From: Thiotrichaceae bacterium
Lineage (GTDB): Bacteria > Pseudomonadota > Gammaproteobacteria > Thiotrichales > Thiotrichaceae
NCBI GenBank assembly: GCA_015486375.1
Contig: WFRR01000032.1
Location: 1 to 44,607, forward strand
Direction: 5' to 3'
DNA length: 44,607 nt
Position numbers and translations under genes: made by a program. The notes under the pieces are model-generated. The model did not search any database. It saw only the letters and a list, made by a program, of their open reading frames with translations, and was not told the origin of the DNA. This document shows, piece by piece, positions 6,599-18,077 of the stretch (its first letter is position 1; each line of letters begins with the position of its first letter).

Positions 6599-8293
6599 AT
6601 GTTGAATGTACAGATAAATCTATCCCCCATTGTCCAGCAACTTATGCTTGAGAAAAACCTAAATGCAAGCCTAATGTATAAGTTAGCTCAGCAAGCTCTA
6701 GAAGAAAAAACCGCTTTATTGGCGTTGTTATTGCATAAACACTTACTAAATGACATAGACATTAGCCATGCTTTTGCCCAACTGTATCAATTCCCCGTAA
6801 TGGATATTCAGGTTGAACATTCTGTAAGATCGTTATTAAGTATTGAACAGTTATTAGACTTACAACTATTACCACTAAGACAACAAATGAATCATCTCAG
6901 TGTAGCTTTAGCTGATCCAGACAAGCTTGATCGTTTGGAAGAAATACGAACGCAAACAGGTCTAAACCCCACACCTGTTATTGTGCCTTATAGTCAATTA
7001 CAGCACTATTTTGTACAACGTAAACAAGAGCAAAAATTAAAACGCGATAGAGGCGGATTACGTATTGCACCAGACACCTATCAACAACCTTATCTATTGA
7101 ATATTGAAGTCTTAAAACGTTTTGAACAAGAAAGCGATGCTATTTCTCAGTTTGTGCATTACATGCTAAAACACGCAATTCAATATCAAGTTTCTGATAT
7201 TCATATCGAGTCTTATGAAAATATTTTTCGAATTCGCTATCGCATGGACGGTATTTTAACCGTTGTTGCTACTCCCCCTAAAAAGATAGCCACACAATTA
7301 ATTTCTCGTTTAAAAGTCTTAGCGCGTTTAAATAGCTCAGAACGTCGTATTCCACAAGATGGAAATATTCATTTTTTATATAAAAATAGCCGTAAAAAAA
7401 TGGATTTTCGGATGAACACTTTACCCACCTTATACGGTGAAAAAGTGGTGTTACGTTTATTGGATGCGGCTAATGTACAGATAAGTATTGATCAACTCGG
7501 CTTTACAGAACAGCAAAAAGCCACCTATCTACAGGCGTTAAAAAAACCTGAAGGCATGATTCTGGTCACAGGACCCACGGGAAGTGGTAAAACGGTCACC
7601 TTGTACTCAGGTTTAAGTATCCTCAATCAACCTGAACGCAATATCGCTACCGTTGAAGATCCGATTGAAATTCAGTTAGCAGGCATTAATCAAGTCAATA
7701 TTAACCCTAAAGTGGGTCTAAATTTTGCTACCGCCTTAAAAGCATTTTTACGTCAAGACCCTGATGTGATTATGTTAGGTGAGATTCGTGATATGGAAAC
7801 AGCCGAAATAGCTTTAAAAGCCGCACAAACAGGGCATCTGGTACTCTCAACATTACATACCAATAGCGCACCTGAAACCTTAACTCGTTTAGCCAATATT
7901 GGCATTCCTGCCTTTAATATTGCCTCTTCCGTTAGTTTAGTAATTGCACAACGCTTAGTACGCCGCTTATGTACTTGTAAACAAGAAACTCATATTGATA
8001 GTGAAGCATTGCTCTATCACGGTTTTCACAAAACGGAAGTAGAAACCCTAAAAGTTTATCAAGCGGTAGGTTGTTCCCAATGTTCTAAAGGCTATAAAGG
8101 TCGTGTAGGAATTTATCAAGTTATGCCTATTTCTGATGCGATGCGACAAATTATTATGTCAGGCGGTAATGCACTCAATTTAGAACAACAAGCGCATCGT
8201 GAAGCCATTCTTAATTTACATGAAGCAGGTTTGAATAAAGTCCGTGAAGGCATTACCAGTATTGAAGAAATTGATCGTGTGACCCACACATAA
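6599..8293 (+). CDS. pilB: Type IV pilus assembly ATPase PilB
   Basis: The hexameric extension motor of type IV pili. The frame is open from a GTG at 6518, but the ATG at 6599 (MLNVQINLSP) gives 564 aa, the usual PilB length, so I prefer it. An N-terminal MshEN/T2SSE-N domain precedes the ATPase core. The core has Walker A GPTGSGKT (about 325-332), the Asp box TVEDPIE, Walker B VIMLGEIRD and the His box LSTLHTNSAPETLTRL. A tetracysteine zinc site follows (CTC and CSQC) ahead of GYKGRVGIYQV. It is the first gene of pilB-pilC-pilD; no pilA pilin lies in the window. Confidence 0.95.
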   Translation: MLNVQINLSPIVQQLMLEKNLNASLMYKLAQQALEEKTALLALLLHKHLLNDIDISHAFAQLYQFPVMDIQVEHSVRSLLSIEQLLDLQLLPLRQQMNHLSVALADPDKLDRLEEIRTQTGLNPTPVIVPYSQLQHYFVQRKQEQKLKRDRGGLRIAPDTYQQPYLLNIEVLKRFEQESDAISQFVHYMLKHAIQYQVSDIHIESYENIFRIRYRMDGILTVVATPPKKIATQLISRLKVLARLNSSERRIPQDGNIHFLYKNSRKKMDFRMNTLPTLYGEKVVLRLLDAANVQISIDQLGFTEQQKATYLQALKKPEGMILVTGPTGSGKTVTLYSGLSILNQPERNIATVEDPIEIQLAGINQVNINPKVGLNFATALKAFLRQDPDVIMLGEIRDMETAEIALKAAQTGHLVLSTLHTNSAPETLTRLANIGIPAFNIASSVSLVIAQRLVRRLCTCKQETHIDSEALLYHGFHKTEVETLKVYQAVGCSQCSKGYKGRVGIYQVMPISDAMRQIIMSGGNALNLEQQAHREAILNLHEAGLNKVREGITSIEEIDRVTHT

Positions 8294-8296
8294 ACT

Positions 8297-9508
8297 ATGA
8301 CTGATCAGCGTAGAAAAGAGTCCTATTTTGTTTGGGTTGGTATCAATCAACAGGGCGTAAAAATTCGGGGTGAGCGTCAAGCTGCTAATGCACAGCTTGT
8401 ACGAATTAATTTACGTCGTGAAGGCATTACTACTCACTCTATCCGTAAAAAACCTCGACCGTTATTTAAACCTAAAATTACCGCGACAGAGATTGCCCAA
8501 TTTTCTCGTCAGCTTACGATTATGTTAGAAGCGGGTATTCCGATTGTGCAAGCGTTGGATTCCATTGCAAAGGGCTATGAAAATCCGTCTTTATCTCATC
8601 TTGTTAAGGAGATTAAACAAGATATTGAAGAAGGCAGTAGTCTTGCCAAAGCCATTCAACAACAACCTAAATATTTTGATGACTTATTTGTTAGCCTTGT
8701 TACCGCAGGTGAATATGCAGGCACATTGGAAAATATGCTGAATGAATTAGCCAATTATCAAGAAAAGATTCAAGCCCTTAAAGCCAAAGTTAAAAAATCT
8801 ATGCTTTATCCTCTATTTGTCCTCTCTGCGACCAGTATTATTTTTGGCTTAATGTTAATTTTTGTGATTCCACAGTTTAAACAAGTATTTAGTAACTTAA
8901 ATGCTCAGTTACCTGCGTTTACTTTATTATTGATTGATCTATCCGATTGGTTACAAAACTCATGGTGGAAATTAGTCTTGAGCTTAGCTGTGTCAGGCTA
9001 TGTATTTTTATGGGCAAAACATCGTTTTAAAGGACTTCAATATTGGCTAGATCGTGTACTGCTTAAACTGCCTTTAATTGGCAAAATTAGTCAATTTTCT
9101 GCCATCGCCCGTTTTTCTCGCACTTTGTCGATTATGTTTGCAGCAGGTGTACCTTTAGTAGAAGCTATGGACTCTGTTGCAGGCAGTACAGGTAATCAAA
9201 TTTATAAACAAGCAACGTTAAATATCAAACAAGATATTTCACAGGGTTTGCCTCTTTTTTCTGCCATGCAAAATCAACAGCTATTCCCCAATATGGTGAT
9301 ACAAATGACTAAAGTAGGGGAAGAGTCGGGACGTGTTGATGAGATGTTGGCACGCGTTGCTAATTATTATGAAGATTATGTCGATAATTTAACTGAAAGC
9401 TTGGTAAAACAAATTGAGCCACTGATTATGCTCCTAATTGGAGGGTTGGTGGGTGCATTAGTGATTGCCATGTATTTGCCGATATTTAAGCTGGGAGAAG
9501 CAATTTAG
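8297..9508 (+). CDS. pilC: Type IV pilus inner-membrane platform protein PilC
   Basis: A 403-aa polytopic protein on which PilB acts. It contains two T2SSF domains (about residues 65-190 and 270-393), each with the ARFSRTLSIMFAAGVPLVEA-type helix; the first copy reads QFSRQLTIMLEAGIPIVQAL. Three hydrophobic membrane segments are visible near 168-190, 215-235 and 372-395. It begins 3 bp after the pilB stop, so the two are almost certainly co-translated, and pilD follows after 4 bp. Confidence 0.95.
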   Translation: MTDQRRKESYFVWVGINQQGVKIRGERQAANAQLVRINLRREGITTHSIRKKPRPLFKPKITATEIAQFSRQLTIMLEAGIPIVQALDSIAKGYENPSLSHLVKEIKQDIEEGSSLAKAIQQQPKYFDDLFVSLVTAGEYAGTLENMLNELANYQEKIQALKAKVKKSMLYPLFVLSATSIIFGLMLIFVIPQFKQVFSNLNAQLPAFTLLLIDLSDWLQNSWWKLVLSLAVSGYVFLWAKHRFKGLQYWLDRVLLKLPLIGKISQFSAIARFSRTLSIMFAAGVPLVEAMDSVAGSTGNQIYKQATLNIKQDISQGLPLFSAMQNQQLFPNMVIQMTKVGEESGRVDEMLARVANYYEDYVDNLTESLVKQIEPLIMLLIGGLVGALVIAMYLPIFKLGEAI

Positions 9509-9512
9509 ATCG

Positions 9513-10391
9513 ATGGATATTTTAATTTTACTGGAATCAAACCACCATATATTAATTATGATTGTGGGTGTTTTTTCATTACTGATTGGTAGTTTTTTAA
9601 ATGCGGTTATTTATCGTATTCCTCTAATGCTGAAACGGGCATGGAAACGAGATTGCCAGATGATATTAGAAAAAACCTCCTCACATATTGATGATGGACA
9701 AATGTTTAACTTACTTTTGCCTAGCTCTCACTGTCCACACTGTGGGCATTCCATTACAGCTTTAGAAAATATTCCCATCTTGAGTTATCTACTCCTAAAA
9801 GGTCGATGTTCCGCTTGTCATAAAAAGATTTCAATTGAATATCCTATTATAGAAATTGTCACGACGCTTTTATCGATGCTGCTAGCGTGGCAATTTGGCT
9901 ATAGCTTAGAACTTGCCGCGAGTTTAGTCCTACTTTGGACATTAATCGTATTATTTATGATTGATGCCAAAACCTTATTATTACCCGATAATCTGACCTA
10001 TCCGCTTTTATGGTTAGGCATTATTATTAATTTTAATACGGTCTTTATTGATTTAGAAAGCAGTGTTATTGGTGCAGTTGCAGGCTATTTAAGCTTATGG
10101 TCGGTGTATCATATTTTTCGCTTGATTACGGGCAAAGAAGGCATGGGATATGGGGACTTTAAACTATTAGCCGCCTTAGGCGCGTGGGGTGGTTGGCAAA
10201 TTCTACCCTTTGTGATTATGAGCGCCGCAACCTTCGGTGCGATTGTCGGCACAATATGGATTTATTTATCTCATCGAGACCCCAATACACAGCCGATTCC
10301 TTTTGGGCCTTACTTGGCAGTAGCAGGATTTATTGCGATTGTATGGCGAGAAGATGTTATGCAATTGATGTGGTTGTATTTCCCTCTATAA
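9513..10391 (+). CDS. pilD: Prepilin peptidase / N-methyltransferase PilD
   Basis: An integral membrane aspartic protease that cleaves and N-methylates type IV pilins and type II secretion pseudopilins. The start chosen is ATG 9513 (MDILILL), preceded by GGGAGAAG; the frame extends back into pilC but adds nothing family-like. The 292-aa protein has the methylase-domain zinc site CPHCGH...CSACHK, and the two catalytic Asp residues lie in IDAKTLLLPD and the GMGYGDFKLLA motif. Six to eight membrane helices are visible. It converges on senB with a 10-bp gap. Confidence 0.95.
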   Translation: MDILILLESNHHILIMIVGVFSLLIGSFLNAVIYRIPLMLKRAWKRDCQMILEKTSSHIDDGQMFNLLLPSSHCPHCGHSITALENIPILSYLLLKGRCSACHKKISIEYPIIEIVTTLLSMLLAWQFGYSLELAASLVLLWTLIVLFMIDAKTLLLPDNLTYPLLWLGIIINFNTVFIDLESSVIGAVAGYLSLWSVYHIFRLITGKEGMGYGDFKLLAALGAWGGWQILPFVIMSAATFGAIVGTIWIYLSHRDPNTQPIPFGPYLAVAGFIAIVWREDVMQLMWLYFPL

Positions 10392-10401
10392 ACTTTAACG
10401 C

Positions 10402-11367
10402 TTATACACTGGCTAAAGGTAGCATTTGCAATAAATTTTGCCATTGTTGTGCTTCTGTTTCAGCTTGAAACTGTTTCGCCTTGTGATCGACTTGCTGTTG
10501 TAATTGCTGCATAAATGCAGCATCACTCTCAGCTTTTATTAATAAATCTCGTAAGGCTTGCGTATCTTGTACAGGATAATAGCCAAGATAATTATCTCCT
10601 AACAAACCGATTGAACCTTGTATATCAGATGCAATCACGGGTAATCCTGCTACGGTTGCTTCTGAAATCACATTTGCGCCGCCTTCCATATTAGAAGACA
10701 AAACCATCAAATGACAACGCGAATAAGCTTGGCGAATTTGCCAGTGCTTAACTTCACCCTTCCAGTGATAACGAGGGTTAATTTGCATTTCGTCGCGTAC
10801 TTTTTTCTCCCAATCGGAGTTATGTGGTTTACCATAATGCAAAACACGAATACGGCTACTTTCAGGTAAATCACGTACTGCATAAGCGGTGCGTAAAGGG
10901 TCTTTTTCATCGCGTAAATGCCCAACGACACAAATATCAAAACTTCGTTGACTACGCTTAATTGGAAAAGGTAAGGCTTGAGCAGATTGATAAATAATAC
11001 TAATTTTATCCCAAACATCTTTAGGTAATTCTAAATAAGCCCGCTCGTGTAAAACCACTAATTTATCTGCGACTTGAATCGAGTGTAAAGTTGATTCAGG
11101 GTGACTGTGAATAAATCGATATAAATCCGTACCTGTCATTGCAACAATCAAAGGCTGATTAGGACACTGTTGCTTGAATTTCGCAATTGAATCTGCACTA
11201 CGCCATGCATGTAATGCAATCATCACATCATAAGAGCTTTCATCCCAGCGCATGGCTATATCAACATGATGTCCAGACGCTTTTAGAAATGCAGCCCAAC
11301 GCGTCGCGGTCGCCCGATTGCCATATAATGATTTAATATTAGCGGGGGTGATAATAATAATTTTCAA
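10402..11367 (-). CDS. senB: Selenosugar synthase SenB (TIGR04348-type glycosyltransferase)
   Basis: A 321-aa GT-B glycosyltransferase-like protein. Its N terminus ITPANIKSLYGNRATATRW and the middle block GHLRDEKDPLRTAYAVRDLP resemble the family known to make Se-glycosidic sugar from selenophosphate and UDP-sugar for selenoneine synthesis (established for SenB). The C-terminal half has the nucleotide-sugar site MEGGANVISEATVAGLPVIASD. The start is TTG at 11367 with a strong AGGAG six bases upstream. The gene is divergent from senA across 104 bp. That pairing is the main reason for the specific call; without it this would be a generic glycosyltransferase. Confidence 0.78.
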   Translation of the reverse strand: MKIIIITPANIKSLYGNRATATRWAAFLKASGHHVDIAMRWDESSYDVMIALHAWRSADSIAKFKQQCPNQPLIVAMTGTDLYRFIHSHPESTLHSIQVADKLVVLHERAYLELPKDVWDKISIIYQSAQALPFPIKRSQRSFDICVVGHLRDEKDPLRTAYAVRDLPESSRIRVLHYGKPHNSDWEKKVRDEMQINPRYHWKGEVKHWQIRQAYSRCHLMVLSSNMEGGANVISEATVAGLPVIASDIQGSIGLLGDNYLGYYPVQDTQALRDLLIKAESDAAFMQQLQQQVDHKAKQFQAETEAQQWQNLLQMLPLASV

Positions 11368-11471
11368 GAAAAACTCCTAATAGGTCAATGGTTCTATAAG
11401 CACAGTTTGTTACCATCATTACATGGCTGAGCAAATTTGATAGTTAATGAAATGATAGGAATAGCGCATAA

Positions 11472-12773
11472 ATGATACAACAAACCCAGATATTGATCGA
11501 ACAATTAAAAGATACGCGTCAACGTACCCTAGAACTCATTGCGGGATTAGACAGTGAACAATTGATGGGTCCTAGGCTTGATATTGTGAATCCCTTATTA
11601 TGGGAAATTGGTCATGCTGCTTACTTTCATGAATACTGGGTGTTACGCCATATTGAACACCCCAAGTATCCTGAAAGCCAAGCCTCGATTTTGCCACGAG
11701 CTAATGAACTGTATGACTCTATTCATATTGCTCATGATGACCGTTGGGATCTGCCCTTGCTTTCACTGGATGAAGTATTGAGCTATATGCAGAGAATTTT
11801 AGCAGCAGAAATTGATTTACTTGAAAGTGGGCAAGCTGATGAGATTGAACAATATCGAATTCAATACGCCATCTTTCATGAAGATATGCACACAGAAGCA
11901 TTTACCTATTCGCGTAAAACCTTAAATTATCCTATTCCTCAGTTTAAGGCAGGAAAGCCACAAATTATTGCTAGTGTAGAAAAATTAAGCGGCGATGCTT
12001 ATATTCCTACAAGCCAATTTAGCCTAGGCGCAGACAAAAATACGCCCTTTTGTTTTGATAATGAAAAGTGGGGACATGAAATTACGGTAGAAGCCTTTAA
12101 TATCTCAAAAACCGCCACGAGCTATGCAGAATATGCAGATTTTGTGGAAGCTGGAAGTTATCAAAATAAACACTATTGGGATAATGAAGGCTGGGACTGG
12201 TTACAACAATCAGGCTTAAAACAACCCTTATACTGGAAAAAAGATGCGAATGGTGCTTGGTTAATTAAACACTTTGATCAATGGAAAACCATGCAGACTA
12301 ATGCAGCTGTTATTCATATTAATTGGTATGAAGCAATGGCATGGTGTCGCTGGGCTGGGCGACGTTTACCCACCGAAGCTGAATGGGAATTAGCCGCTTC
12401 AGGCAATCCAAATAATACTGAAAAAACCACTTACCCTTGGGGAAATACTGAACCGTGTACAGAGTATGCCAATCTTGATGGTTATCAACTAGAAAGCATT
12501 GATGTTAGTGCTTTAGCCGCAGGTGATAGTGCTTTTGGTTGTCGTCAAATGCTAGGTAATGTATGGGAATGGACTGGCGATACTTTCGAGCCTTACCCTG
12601 ATTTTGAAGCCGATATGTATGCTGATTACTCTCAACCTTTATTTTCAAAAACAAAAGTATTAAAAGGCGGTGCATGGACAAGCCGTTCTCGTATGATCCG
12701 TAATACATGGCGCAATTATTACGGCAAAGAAAGAAATGATATATTTGCAGGCTTCCGTAGTTGTGCGGTTTAG
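11472..12773 (+). CDS. senA: Selenoneine synthase SenA (EgtB-like nonheme iron enzyme)
   Basis: A 433-aa protein with an N-terminal DinB-like helical domain and a C-terminal formylglycine-generating-enzyme (FGE) type domain, the EgtB/OvoA/SenA architecture. The three-His iron site is visible as His48 (WEIGHAAYFHEYW) and His136/His140 (FHEDMHTEAF). The FGE part has AMAWCRWAGRRLPTEAEWE and the end motif GGAWTSRSRMIRNTWRNYY...GFRSCAV. In the known pathway SenA joins hercynine to a selenosugar made by SenB. The HEDMH rather than HEQQH spelling and the adjacent senB favour SenA over ergothioneine EgtB. No egtD/hercynine synthase gene is present here. Confidence 0.78.
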   Translation: MIQQTQILIEQLKDTRQRTLELIAGLDSEQLMGPRLDIVNPLLWEIGHAAYFHEYWVLRHIEHPKYPESQASILPRANELYDSIHIAHDDRWDLPLLSLDEVLSYMQRILAAEIDLLESGQADEIEQYRIQYAIFHEDMHTEAFTYSRKTLNYPIPQFKAGKPQIIASVEKLSGDAYIPTSQFSLGADKNTPFCFDNEKWGHEITVEAFNISKTATSYAEYADFVEAGSYQNKHYWDNEGWDWLQQSGLKQPLYWKKDANGAWLIKHFDQWKTMQTNAAVIHINWYEAMAWCRWAGRRLPTEAEWELAASGNPNNTEKTTYPWGNTEPCTEYANLDGYQLESIDVSALAAGDSAFGCRQMLGNVWEWTGDTFEPYPDFEADMYADYSQPLFSKTKVLKGGAWTSRSRMIRNTWRNYYGKERNDIFAGFRSCAV

Positions 12774-12874: not shown

Positions 12875-13189
12875 TTATAATTTTTCAATTAAAACAATAT
12901 GTTGTGCTTTAATATTTTCATGAAAGGATTTAGGTACATTATTCCATGTAAATAAATCAACCCGAAAGGGTAAATCACTTTCGTCAAAGGCTTCTTTTAA
13001 ATAAAAAACAGCCATTGCTTGATTATCTTCTGTAAAAACCACCATATCTAAATCAGAATTATGACGACTTGTGCCTTTTATACGTGAACCATAAAGCCAA
13101 ATCTCAGTATTAGGGAGATACTGATTTAGCAAATCAATAAGTATTGTTTGATCTTCATCATCAATATCAAGCGTGTTTTTTAATGCCAT
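12875..13189 (-). CDS. mntA: MntA-like minimal nucleotidyltransferase (type VII antitoxin)
   Basis: A 104-aa MNT-fold protein. The diagnostic GSX10DXD motif is intact: Gly34-Ser35 in LYGSRIKG and Asp46/Asp48 in NSDLDMVV, with a downstream acidic FRVDLFTW giving the third carboxylate. In characterised HepT-MntA pairs this enzyme AMPylates a Tyr of the HEPN partner and neutralises its RNase activity. It overlaps the upstream HEPN gene by 10 bp, so the two are translationally coupled. It is also known as the HI0073-type nucleotidyltransferase. Activity here is inferred from motif conservation. Confidence 0.85.
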   Translation of the reverse strand: MALKNTLDIDDEDQTILIDLLNQYLPNTEIWLYGSRIKGTSRHNSDLDMVVFTEDNQAMAVFYLKEAFDESDLPFRVDLFTWNNVPKSFHENIKAQHIVLIEKL

Positions 13190-13596
13190 GTTGCACCACT
13201 TATTTTTTCATAAAGTTGTATAGCATCGGTAATATAATCATCCATTGATTGCAATGCCTTTTTCGCTTTTTCACCATTATAGTCATGTGATGTACTATTT
13301 CTGAGCTGTAAATAATAAAACCATATTTTTATATCCGTATCTAATAAGTTATTTTCATTAGCAATTCTTAACAAAGGTTTAGGAGAATTGGGTATTTCAG
13401 CAAGCCCCATTTCTTCAGAAAGATAGCGTTTTAAGACTTTCCACATAGAGTCAAAACAGGTTTCAAACCGCTGAATAATAGATTCTGGTACAGCCTCTTT
13501 TAACCAATCTGGAAGAGAATCATCCATAACTTTATAATGCTCATACATAACCTCAAGGTGCTTAAGTGATTTTTGAAACTTATTATATTCAATCAT
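13180..13596 (-). CDS. hepT: HepT-like HEPN ribonuclease toxin (HI0074 family)
   Basis: A 138-aa all-helical HEPN protein of the nucleotidyltransferase-substrate-binding family. The catalytic RX4HXY motif is complete: Arg99-NSTS-His104-Asp-Tyr106, where Tyr106 is the residue expected to be AMPylated by MntA. It sits upstream of and overlaps mntA. Its ATG overlaps the stop of a short upstream frame as ATGA (see the hsdM-like remnant), which suggests it was once embedded in a longer operon. With both motifs intact, the pair is predicted to be a functional type VII toxin-antitoxin module. Confidence 0.85.
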   Translation of the reverse strand: MIEYNKFQKSLKHLEVMYEHYKVMDDSLPDWLKEAVPESIIQRFETCFDSMWKVLKRYLSEEMGLAEIPNSPKPLLRIANENNLLDTDIKIWFYYLQLRNSTSHDYNGEKAKKALQSMDDYITDAIQLYEKISGATWH

Positions 13597-14768: not shown

Positions 14769-16304
14769 ATGTCTGCCACTCAGAGCTTTCTCATGTCATT
14801 CGTTGAATTTACTGCCGCGTTATTTATATTTATTATTGGCATTATTGGCATTATTGCATTAATTGTTTACATCAAAGATGTCACCCAAACGAAACAAGCA
14901 ATTTTAAGAAACTATCCTATTATCGGGCATTTTCGTTATTTATTTGAACATCTCGGCGAGTTTTTTCGACAATATTTCTTTGCAATGGATCGTGAAGAAC
15001 TGCCTTTTAATCGAGCGCAACGTACTTGGGTTTATAAAGCCGCTAAAAATGTCAGTAATACCGTTGCATTCGGTTCAACTAAAGACCTACGCAAACGAGG
15101 CTCAGTATTATTTGTTAATTCACCTTTTCCTACCTTAGATGAGGATGCTGTCCCGAGTTTAAAAACCACCATTGGTAAAGACTGCCTGATGCCCTATTCC
15201 ACTGAAGCCATTTTTTGTATTTCGGGTATGAGCTACGGAGCAATTTCCAAACCTGCAGTTTTATCCTTATCGCATGGGGCAAAAAAAGCAGGCATCTGGA
15301 TGAATACAGGTGAAGGGGGCTTATCGCCTTATCATTTGGAAGGGGATTGCGATATTGTTTTTCAGATTGGTACAGCCAAAAATGGTGTCAGTGATCAGGA
15401 CGGCAATTTAGATGATGATTTACTGCGTGAAGTGGCAGCCCATCCACAAGTGAAGATGTTTGAATTAAAGTTAAGTCAAGGAGCTAAACCAGGCAAAGGC
15501 GGTATTTTACCCAAAGAAAAAGTTAGTAAAGAAATTGCAGCTATTCGTAATATCCCCGTGGGTGAAGCCGCGATTAGCCCTAATCGCCATACCGATGTCA
15601 GTTCTAACTCCGATCTGTTGTTATTAATTAATCGGATTCGGGATGTCACGGGTAAACCAACAGGATTTAAAGCCGTCATCAGTGACGCTTCGTGGTTAGA
15701 TGATTTATTCACAGAAATTCAAGAGCAAGGCATCGACTCTGCCCCTGATTTTATTGTGGTGGATAGTGCTGATGGTGGGACGGGGGCAGCGCCTTTACCT
15801 TTGATTGATGATATGGGCTTACCGCTACGTGAAAGCTTACCGATGTTAGATAATAAATTAACCGAATATGGTTTACGTGATCGAGTAAAAGTCATTGCTT
15901 CTGGAAAATTAATTACCCCTGCGGATGTTGCATGGGCGATTTGTTTAGGGGCTGATTTTTGTGTTTCTGCCCGAGGCTTTATGTTTGCATTAGGCTGTAT
16001 TCAAGCTTTGCAATGTAACAAGAATACTTGTCCAACAGGGATTACAACCCATGATAAGCATTTACAAAAAGGCTTAATTCCAGACTCTAAAATTGGTCGA
16101 GTGGTGGATTATGCTCATAATATCGAACACGAGGTGGGCATTATTGCTCATTCCTGTGGTGTGAAAGAACCGCGTGCTTTAAGCCGTAAACATGCACGTA
16201 TTGTCACGGATCATAATTTGTCTATTCCCATGAATCAATTACACCCTATTCCTGCTGTTCTGAAACAATATAAAAGGAATAAGTTAAAGAATGATTTCGG
16301 TTAG
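14769..16304 (+). CDS. FMN-binding glutamate-synthase-family membrane protein
   Basis: A 511-aa protein related to the FMN/synthase domain of GltB but without glutaminase or GltD-like parts. An N-terminal membrane helix (about residues 12-33) is followed by the family's conserved block RNYPIIGHFRYLFEHLGEFF. The TIM barrel contains MSYGAISKPAVLSLS, NTGEGGLSPYH, SADGGTGAAPLPL (phosphate/FMN loop) and CNKNTCPTGITTHD, the usual 3Fe-4S Cys region. An AAAGGAG Shine-Dalgarno eight bases upstream fixes the start. The physiological substrate of this widespread family is not established, so I give no gene symbol. It stands alone, with xthA divergent upstream. Confidence 0.88.
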   Translation: MSATQSFLMSFVEFTAALFIFIIGIIGIIALIVYIKDVTQTKQAILRNYPIIGHFRYLFEHLGEFFRQYFFAMDREELPFNRAQRTWVYKAAKNVSNTVAFGSTKDLRKRGSVLFVNSPFPTLDEDAVPSLKTTIGKDCLMPYSTEAIFCISGMSYGAISKPAVLSLSHGAKKAGIWMNTGEGGLSPYHLEGDCDIVFQIGTAKNGVSDQDGNLDDDLLREVAAHPQVKMFELKLSQGAKPGKGGILPKEKVSKEIAAIRNIPVGEAAISPNRHTDVSSNSDLLLLINRIRDVTGKPTGFKAVISDASWLDDLFTEIQEQGIDSAPDFIVVDSADGGTGAAPLPLIDDMGLPLRESLPMLDNKLTEYGLRDRVKVIASGKLITPADVAWAICLGADFCVSARGFMFALGCIQALQCNKNTCPTGITTHDKHLQKGLIPDSKIGRVVDYAHNIEHEVGIIAHSCGVKEPRALSRKHARIVTDHNLSIPMNQLHPIPAVLKQYKRNKLKNDFG

Positions 16305-16862: not shown

Positions 16863-18077
16863 TTAAGACTTACAGTGATGAGGATCAACCACTTTATCTG
16901 CAAGTGAGACAGGTAAGAAACGCAATACCTTAACGGCTACGGTGACGATCGCGAGTGATAATGCCATTCCACCTAAACCTAAGGCTAATTCAAGCATTGA
17001 AGGTTGATAGCTATTCACCATTCCATCGAAGAAACTACTGCTTACTTCTGCATTCGGGAAGAGGACTAACGGATAGGCTTGACCACCAATAAGAATGACA
17101 TAAAGCTGAGCAAATGCTCCGACTATCACAAAGACCGAAGCTGCAACAAAGGCTTTACGATTATTCTTTAAGCGACTACAGAAAATCAGGAAGAGCGGTA
17201 ACACTGTTCCGACACCAATCTGAACCCACCAGAATAACGTACTGTAAATATTGTCACCCATTAAAATAAAGGCTTCAATACCGTGATGCTCAGTCGCATA
17301 TAGGTTAGTTAAGTGACGGGCGAGTTCTAATAGAAATACACCACCAATAAATACGGCTAATAAGTAGCGTAATTTATTAATAAGCACATCACCAATCGGA
17401 CGTTTTGTACCCGTATAGGCTGCCATCAATACAAGATTGAACATGGCAAGACCCACTGCAAAAGACAGTACGATAAATAAGGGTGCCATAATCGCTGCGT
17501 CATAAAACTGACGTGCCACAATAAAGCCAAAGATAGAACCTGTACCCAACGTTAGTAATAAACGCCATATAAAGGCTGCACTTCCTGCAATCTTATAAAG
17601 GAACTTCATTTTAGGGTCGATCATTGTCCAAATATAAAGACCAACGAGTAGCATAAAGCCATTATAAAGAATGATATTCCATGCAAAAATAGACTTAAAG
17701 TTGTAGCTTGTCATGGCAACAATTAAGCGATCAGCCCGACCTAAATCTAAGACTAAAACGATCAAGCCACCCATTAACAATGCCATTGCTAATAAGCCAG
17801 ATAAACGTCCTAGGGGTTGATAAATATGTTTACCAAATACCGTTCCCATCGAACCAATATTTAATGCGCCTGATGCAGCGACCACTAAACCGATTGCAAA
17901 TACATGCGGTAGACCCCACACAATTTGGTTATTCATGCCTGTGATGTAATGACCTGAATGTTCTGCGGTAAAGAAAGCGATTGCGCCTGCTAGAATAAAT
18001 AATCCTAGAAAACCCAGTAAACCCCAATAGCCAACACCATTACTTTTTACTTCTTGAAACACGATTTTTGTATTCAT
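16863..18077 (-). CDS. dsrP: DsrP, NrfD/PsrC-family membrane subunit of DsrMKJOP
   Basis: A 404-aa polytopic protein with about ten membrane helices and no soluble domain, typical of the NrfD/PsrC family quinone-interacting subunit. As part of DsrMKJOP it is expected to link the periplasmic DsrJ/DsrO module to the membrane quinone pool. It lies 19 bp after dsrO and is the last gene of the operon. In Allochromatium the operon continues with dsrN, dsrR and dsrS; here a terminator follows instead. Confidence 0.93.
   Translation of the reverse strand: MNTKIVFQEVKSNGVGYWGLLGFLGLFILAGAIAFFTAEHSGHYITGMNNQIVWGLPHVFAIGLVVAASGALNIGSMGTVFGKHIYQPLGRLSGLLAMALLMGGLIVLVLDLGRADRLIVAMTSYNFKSIFAWNIILYNGFMLLVGLYIWTMIDPKMKFLYKIAGSAAFIWRLLLTLGTGSIFGFIVARQFYDAAIMAPLFIVLSFAVGLAMFNLVLMAAYTGTKRPIGDVLINKLRYLLAVFIGGVFLLELARHLTNLYATEHHGIEAFILMGDNIYSTLFWWVQIGVGTVLPLFLIFCSRLKNNRKAFVAASVFVIVGAFAQLYVILIGGQAYPLVLFPNAEVSSSFFDGMVNSYQPSMLELALGLGGMALSLAIVTVAVKVLRFLPVSLADKVVDPHHCKS

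Follow-up and report, generated by a model that had tools for sequence, protein, structure and literature searches.

The DNA examined here (the window, a stretch of 44,607 nucleotides from a Thiotrichaceae bacterium) carries two divergent genes, which raise the question of whether they make selenoneine, a selenium antioxidant, and from which substrates they would do so. We consider it probable, at about 0.86, that this senB/senA pair codes for the enzymes of the two final steps in selenoneine biosynthesis, with SelD and EgtD provided from another contig of the same genome (C119).

Both open reading frames, 10402-11367 (-) and 11472-12773 (+), were found at these positions among the window ORFs and by reading the sequence. 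The features of the locus are as follows.

10402..11367, minus strand: senB, predicted selenosugar synthase (GT-B Se-glycosyltransferase), 321 aa, TTG start; TIGR04348, 407.6 bits against a cut-off of 300
11368..11471, no strand: intergenic region between the divergent senB and senA starts, 104 bp; sequence read
11472..12773, plus strand: senA, predicted selenoneine synthase, EgtB-like non-heme iron enzyme, 433 aa, full-length (long) form; NF041186, 482.9 bits against a cut-off of 420, and tree
11502..11858, plus strand: DinB-like N-terminal domain of SenA (residues 11-129), carrying the Fe ligand His48; PF12867 (DinB_2), E 3e-9
11877..11891, plus strand: codons His136-Glu-Asp-Met139-His140, two Fe ligands and Met139, the selenium-branch mark (Gln137 in EgtB); alignment columns
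12003..12758, plus strand: FGE-sulfatase (C-type-lectin-like) domain of SenA (residues 178-429); PF03781, E 1.3e-42
12618..12629, plus strand: codons Tyr383 (EgtB Tyr377, catalytic) to Tyr386 (EgtB Tyr380; Met in OvsA); alignment columns
12714..12722, plus strand: codons Asn415-Tyr416-Tyr417 (EgtB Asn414/Trp415/Asp416; Gln-Ala in OvsA), hercynine-type site; alignment columns

In the NCBIfam profile search both proteins scored above curated equivalog cut-offs (E = 2.8e-122 for senB and 8.7e-145 for senA), and these family matches are far beyond chance. The original prediction had described a TIGR04348-like glycosyltransferase divergent over 104 bp from an EgtB-like gene, and coordinates, gap and TIGR04348 score agree with it. 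Its proposed comparison of SenA and SenB profiles with those of EgtB and OvoA returned SenB and SenA as the best families, and not EgtB/OvoA or a generic glycosyltransferase. The TTG start of senB is credible because relatives open at the same residue with ATG (MNIIIITPAK in L058, a Cocleimonas locus, and MHIGIITPAA in L060, a locus of an uncultured gammaproteobacterium). A promoter-like signal or motif was sought in the 104-bp gap, and none rose above shuffled background. Among related loci fetched with SenB, divergent senA/senB is the most frequent layout (43 loci in which a recognised SenA or OvsA adjoins SenB), and the layout itself is therefore ordinary. Another 27 fetched loci had no recognised partner, and three were scored as ‘convergent’, a label that seems to be an artefact of long stop-to-stop frames.

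The glycosyltransferase is 39% identical to SenB of V. paradoxus over the aligned part. We checked 15 functional positions taken from PMC10891094, and 12 of them are identical in the window protein (N17, T20, H53, R56, T78, T80, D81, Q127, R152, K155, E228, and E236 in its own numbering), including every tested selenophosphate-pocket residue and Lys155, which corresponds to the Lys158 required for breakage of the Se-P bond (PMC10891094). In V. paradoxus numbering, all 10 residues of the selenophosphate/UDP-sugar pocket are retained (N20, T23, H58, R61, T83, T85, R155, K158, E231, E239), as are D86 and Q131. Three positions differ, with V for L209, I for T214, and N for H235; alanine mutants of L209 and T214 showed higher activity (PMC10891094).

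In the partner enzyme, His48, His136, and His140 fall in the columns of the three Fe ligands of every SenA, OvsA, and true EgtB sequence aligned, and together with PF03781 they bear out the earlier description of an EgtB-like three-His enzyme with an FGE domain. Active-site columns, numbered as in EgtB, were compared across 83 sequences. The replacements of Arg87 by His and of Gln137 by Met, characteristic of the selenium branch, occur in 56/56 selenium-branch sequences and in 0/22 EgtB sequences: all SenA and OvsA have His and Met, EgtB has Arg (one Lys) and Gln, and the window protein has His88 and Met139. In EgtB, Arg87 binds gamma-Glu-Cys, while Gln137, Asn414, and Trp415 bind hercynine (PMC9103826). 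The columns Tyr380/Asn414/Trp415 are Tyr/Asn/aromatic in SenA (one Thr for Asn), Met/Gln/Ala in 4/4 OvsA, and Phe/Tyr/Ala in readable OvoA. The window protein carries Tyr386/Asn415/Tyr416, the hercynine-type set seen in SenA and EgtB. In our alignments, where PDB 8U41 has M, Q, and A at these three places, PDB 8UX5 has Y, N, and F, and we infer that PDB 8UX5 is a deliberate SenA-like variant of OvsA.

The profile scores of the window enzyme are 482.9 for SenA (cut-off 420), 310 for EgtB (cut-off 360), and 138 for OvoA-N (cut-off 400). In the SenA tree it is sister to the L060 protein (97/79), inside a full-length clade (94/93) of alpha- and gammaproteobacterial proteins and one myxococcal sequence. 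This clade stands apart from the OvsA clade (100/99) and from a short betaproteobacterial clade with V. paradoxus SenA (99/99). The order of the long-SenA, short-SenA, and OvsA clades received support of only 79/37 (AU p 0.44), and a tree in which the window SenA was forced to group with OvsA was 24 lnL units worse without being formally rejected (AU p 0.147). The SenA name for the long clade therefore rests on residues and gene content.

The SenB tree has a different shape. The window protein groups with those of Cocleimonas, G028 (another Thiotrichaceae genome), and L059 (100/99), leaving L060 outside (99/96), while a tree with the window sequence held beside L060 was not rejected (AU p 0.085). 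Within this clade SenB of Cocleimonas and G028, the two nearest relatives by path, occurs with OvsA, and SenB of the window and of the L059 genome occurs with SenA-type enzymes. The simplest reading is that SenB would have been retained while its partner was exchanged or differentially lost, and an exchange of partners is likely on these trees.

The original prediction stated that no senC, egtD, or selD lies in the window, and none was found among the window ORFs searched. It concluded that selenophosphate and hercynine must come from elsewhere unless the product differs, and the genome profile search located both sources side by side on C119: SelD at C119:5943-6860 (437 bits, cut-off 125) and EgtD at C119:7017-7916 (398 bits, cut-off 290.9). 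The two genes form a divergent pair of their own, with starts at 6875 (-) and 6975 (+) about 99 bp apart, and their neighbours, named by eye, are aroC-like and hisC-like genes. With a GCGC motif and 544 bits against NF002098, SelD belongs to the standard E. coli type; the Cocleimonas SelD encoded near SenB shares 73% identity with it. A candidate second SelD on C106 was discarded, as by eye its translation reads ThiL-like and it lies downstream of a nusB-like gene. The assembly is a draft of 175 contigs (97% complete, 3.64% contamination) in which selD/egtD and senB/senA are on different contigs; the composition of the selD/egtD contig matches (GC 0.38 vs 0.39; tetranucleotide r 0.975). GC of senB/senA is 0.397 against 0.391 for the window. 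Neither pair departs from the genome in GC or tetranucleotide use, so very recent transfer shows no sign. A recent foreign island for senB/senA was rejected on the same GC agreement, although two genomes of the same genus lack senA, senB, and egtD matches, a pattern that either acquisition or loss may explain.

Other users of the two substrates were sought in the same 97%-complete draft. SelU is present (338 bits, on C173), whereas the search for SelA found none; selenophosphate is therefore probably used for tRNA and selenoneine and not for selenocysteine. A second, truncated and divergent C-terminal part of SelU lies at a contig end (L015, G000:C96, 3-584), and may be a paralogue or derive from a foreign contig in the draft. 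On the hercynine side, neither a second EgtB-like enzyme nor OvsM/OvoA-C was found in the genome (for the latter, best 26.6 bits against a TIGR04345 cut-off of 170), hence SenA is the only hercynine consumer detected among these families in the 97%-complete draft. No EanB-type hercynine sulfurtransferase was recognised among the ORFs adjoining egtD on C119. The only other FGE protein in the genome is a fusion of a caspase-like and an FGE-sulfatase domain (L012, G000:C27, 2-1285) on a 3.4-kb contig; many genomes of the bacterial family encode numerous FGE-domain proteins.

With activities and product carried over from V. paradoxus, where the pathway has been characterised (PMC10702425, PMC10891094, PMC9814287), the genes of the proposed route would form two divergent pairs, of which senB/senA lies in the window and selD/egtD on C119. 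SelD would form selenophosphate from selenide and ATP, and SenB would transfer its selenium to a UDP-sugar, giving a selenosugar with release of phosphate. EgtD would trimethylate histidine to hercynine. SenA, with Fe(II) held by three His and with O2, would then join the selenosugar to the hercynine imidazole at C2; the resulting selenoxide would eliminate the sugar and be reduced to selenoneine.

The V. paradoxus sen cluster (SenA/SenB/SenC; Kayrouz et al. 2022; PDB 8K5I, 8RYZ, 8FBX, 8JJQ) shares with the window the SenA and SenB families, the SenB pocket residues, and the hercynine-type SenA active site. It differs in that no SenC lies beside the window pair, a canonical E. coli-type SelD being encoded elsewhere next to egtD. 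As first defined, a sen cluster has selD/senC overlapping or beside senA/senB, while here selD is on C119. The SenA proteins are 39% identical over the aligned part, and the window enzyme has a full-length FGE loop of about 50 residues that is missing in V. paradoxus. The locus L060 (JABDRN010000045), the nearest complete relative, shares the divergent senA/senB arrangement (SenA 62%, SenB 63% identity), but there senA, senB, egtD, and an oxidoreductase-SelD fusion make up one cluster, in contrast to the two separate pairs of the window genome. The L060 fusion is divergent from egtD and near senA/senB (8193-11724), and weaker SelD matches on long frames similar to it recur in other loci (e.g. 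L063, L066, L069, L073).

Three other readings of the pair have to be weighed. An ergothioneine route, in which an EgtB-like enzyme merely has an unrelated glycosyltransferase as neighbour, would account for the presence of EgtD and for the three-His and FGE architecture, which known EgtB/EgtD systems (e.g. G003, G027; PDB 4X8B) have in common with the window genome, including hercynine supply by EgtD. However, the EgtB score stays below its cut-off, identity to true EgtB of the same bacterial family (G003 and G027 among them, with egtD adjacent) is about 26%, and the gamma-Glu-Cys-binding Arg87 and Gln137 are replaced by His and Met, unlike in 22/22 EgtB. The neighbour, in addition, is SenB, a specific equivalog with a selenophosphate pocket. 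This reading was rejected on score and residues, and we consider it very improbable. A closer competitor is the enzyme OvsA. The ovs cluster (OvsA/OvsM; PDB 8U41, 8UX5; Kayrouz et al. 2024) is that of ovoselenol, and the details of OvsA are drawn in part from the PDB sequences. It has in common with the window a full-length EgtB-like fold, the selenium-branch residues corresponding to His88/Met139, and SenB as the source of the selenosugar, and members of the same bacterial family that carry it have a SenB 69-71% identical to that of the window. If the window enzyme were OvsA, selenium would be put on histidine and the product would be ovoselenol or its unmethylated precursor. The solved structures at first sight point this way, since OvsA scores best (8UX5 311 and 8U41 303 bits, against 243 bits for SenA 8K5I and 8RYZ), and identity to OvsA is 40%. 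The higher OvsA score is in part an effect of length, because about 50 residues, a loop retained in OvsA and in the window protein, are missing from V. paradoxus SenA. Nor does the family model decide: OvsA of G028, which adjoins an OvsM-type methyltransferase (TIGR04345, 324 bits), reaches 432 bits against the NCBIfam SenA cut-off of 420, so the model cannot separate the two products, and naming SenA by this score alone was dropped. The pairing of the two nearest SenB relatives with OvsA and the AU value of 0.147 also leave room for an OvsA reading. Against it stand the replacement of Met/Gln/Ala by Tyr/Asn/Tyr, a genome without OvsM and with EgtD, and the tree position with L060 in the SenA clade. 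Residues, OvsM absence, and EgtD presence overrule the PDB ranking, and leave OvsA very improbable. The suggestion in the original prediction that the product might differ fares accordingly, with the active-site columns and OvsM absence favouring selenoneine.

The remaining reading makes the window protein a third selenosugar-using enzyme, in which the long alpha/gamma clade would use another acceptor (partly methylated histidine or another imidazole betaine) or make a modified selenoneine. The PDB search returned no member of this clade among solved structures and no assay of one was found, the window protein stands at least as far from V. paradoxus SenA as from OvsA, and four other SenA genomes have no detectable EgtD. 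However, the acceptor-site columns equal those of characterised SenA, and EgtD is present here and in 12/16 other SenA-type genomes, in several of them directly beside senA. A third enzyme at this locus is therefore very unlikely, and that the full-length alpha/gamma clade as a whole should be a functionally distinct branch, with an acceptor or product unlike that of V. paradoxus SenA, we consider very unlikely as well. Selenoneine synthesis by the senB/senA pair remains the preferred reading.

Gene content across related genomes was compared in a set of 20, comprising 17 SenA-type (including the window genome, and two whose SenA is truncated at a contig end) and 3 OvsA-type genomes (G028/G066 counted once). 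OvsM occurs in 3/3 OvsA genomes and 0/17 SenA genomes (Fisher p 0.0009), and EgtD in 13/17 SenA genomes and 0/3 OvsA genomes (Fisher p 0.03), both p values being optimistic as the genomes are related. Among 35 other sampled genomes of the family, G028 alone has SenB above E 1e-40 or a SenA-model match above the cut-off. In two genomes of the same genus, SenB and EgtD gave no match, and the SenA model picked up nothing beyond a weak FGE-domain match. The ovsA-ovsM pair of G028 lies at 8843-10947 of L047 (G028:C128), with SenB (L057, 70% identical to that of the window) on another contig; by the NCBIfam SenA cut-off its OvsA would be misnamed selenoneine synthase. In a Cocleimonas MAG of the same family (L058, 384-7663), ovsM-ovsA, a permease-like gene, senB, and a canonical selD lie within about 7 kb, which is likely an ovoselenol cluster. 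In another genome (G058), a long-type SenA cut by the contig end (L183, G058:C82, 484-2559) adjoins an HDOD-like gene instead of senB; that genome has its SenB on a different contig, and a search of it for EgtD found none.

The original prediction also drew attention to selenium metabolism beside a sulfur-oxidation block. The block is present: the window contains dsrA, dsrB, a DsrE-family gene, DsrM-, DsrK-, DsrO-, and DsrP-like genes, aprA, and an AprB-like gene. DsrE presumably indicates an oxidative (reverse) Dsr pathway. A special link between the two is not supported. The block starts at 16863, about 4 kb past senA, and the genes between them are unrelated: a toxin-antitoxin-like pair, xth, and a glutamate-synthase-domain gene. 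The first of these, at 12875-13596 (-), consists of a nucleotidyltransferase (Polbeta/NTP_transf_2) and an NTase substrate-binding protein overlapping by 10 bp, and looks like a HEPN/MNT-type toxin-antitoxin pair. The last, at 14769-16304 (+) between xth and the dsr block, is a stand-alone glutamate-synthase (FMN) domain protein without the GltB amidotransferase part. By eye, no Dsr genes were identified in the listed ORFs around the two near relatives L058 and L060. A functional tie of senB/senA to the sulfur genes was rejected, as neighbourhood is the only link, and their co-location looks incidental. As for discrimination between selenium and sulfur in known enzymes, SenC rejects sulfide and SenB disfavours thiophosphate 10-20-fold (PMC10702425).

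The genome of this sulfur-oxidising member of the Thiotrichaceae appears to hold a complete dedicated selenium-metabolite pathway, as a further example of one already known. Its organization in two divergent pairs instead of one cluster means that searches for selD only beside senA/senB would miss it. The three-residue test (Tyr/Asn/aromatic vs Met/Gln/Ala) tells selenoneine from ovoselenol enzymes where the NCBIfam SenA model fails. Within one bacterial family nearly the same SenB serves SenA or OvsA depending on the species, which makes the choice between two selenium antioxidants directly testable.
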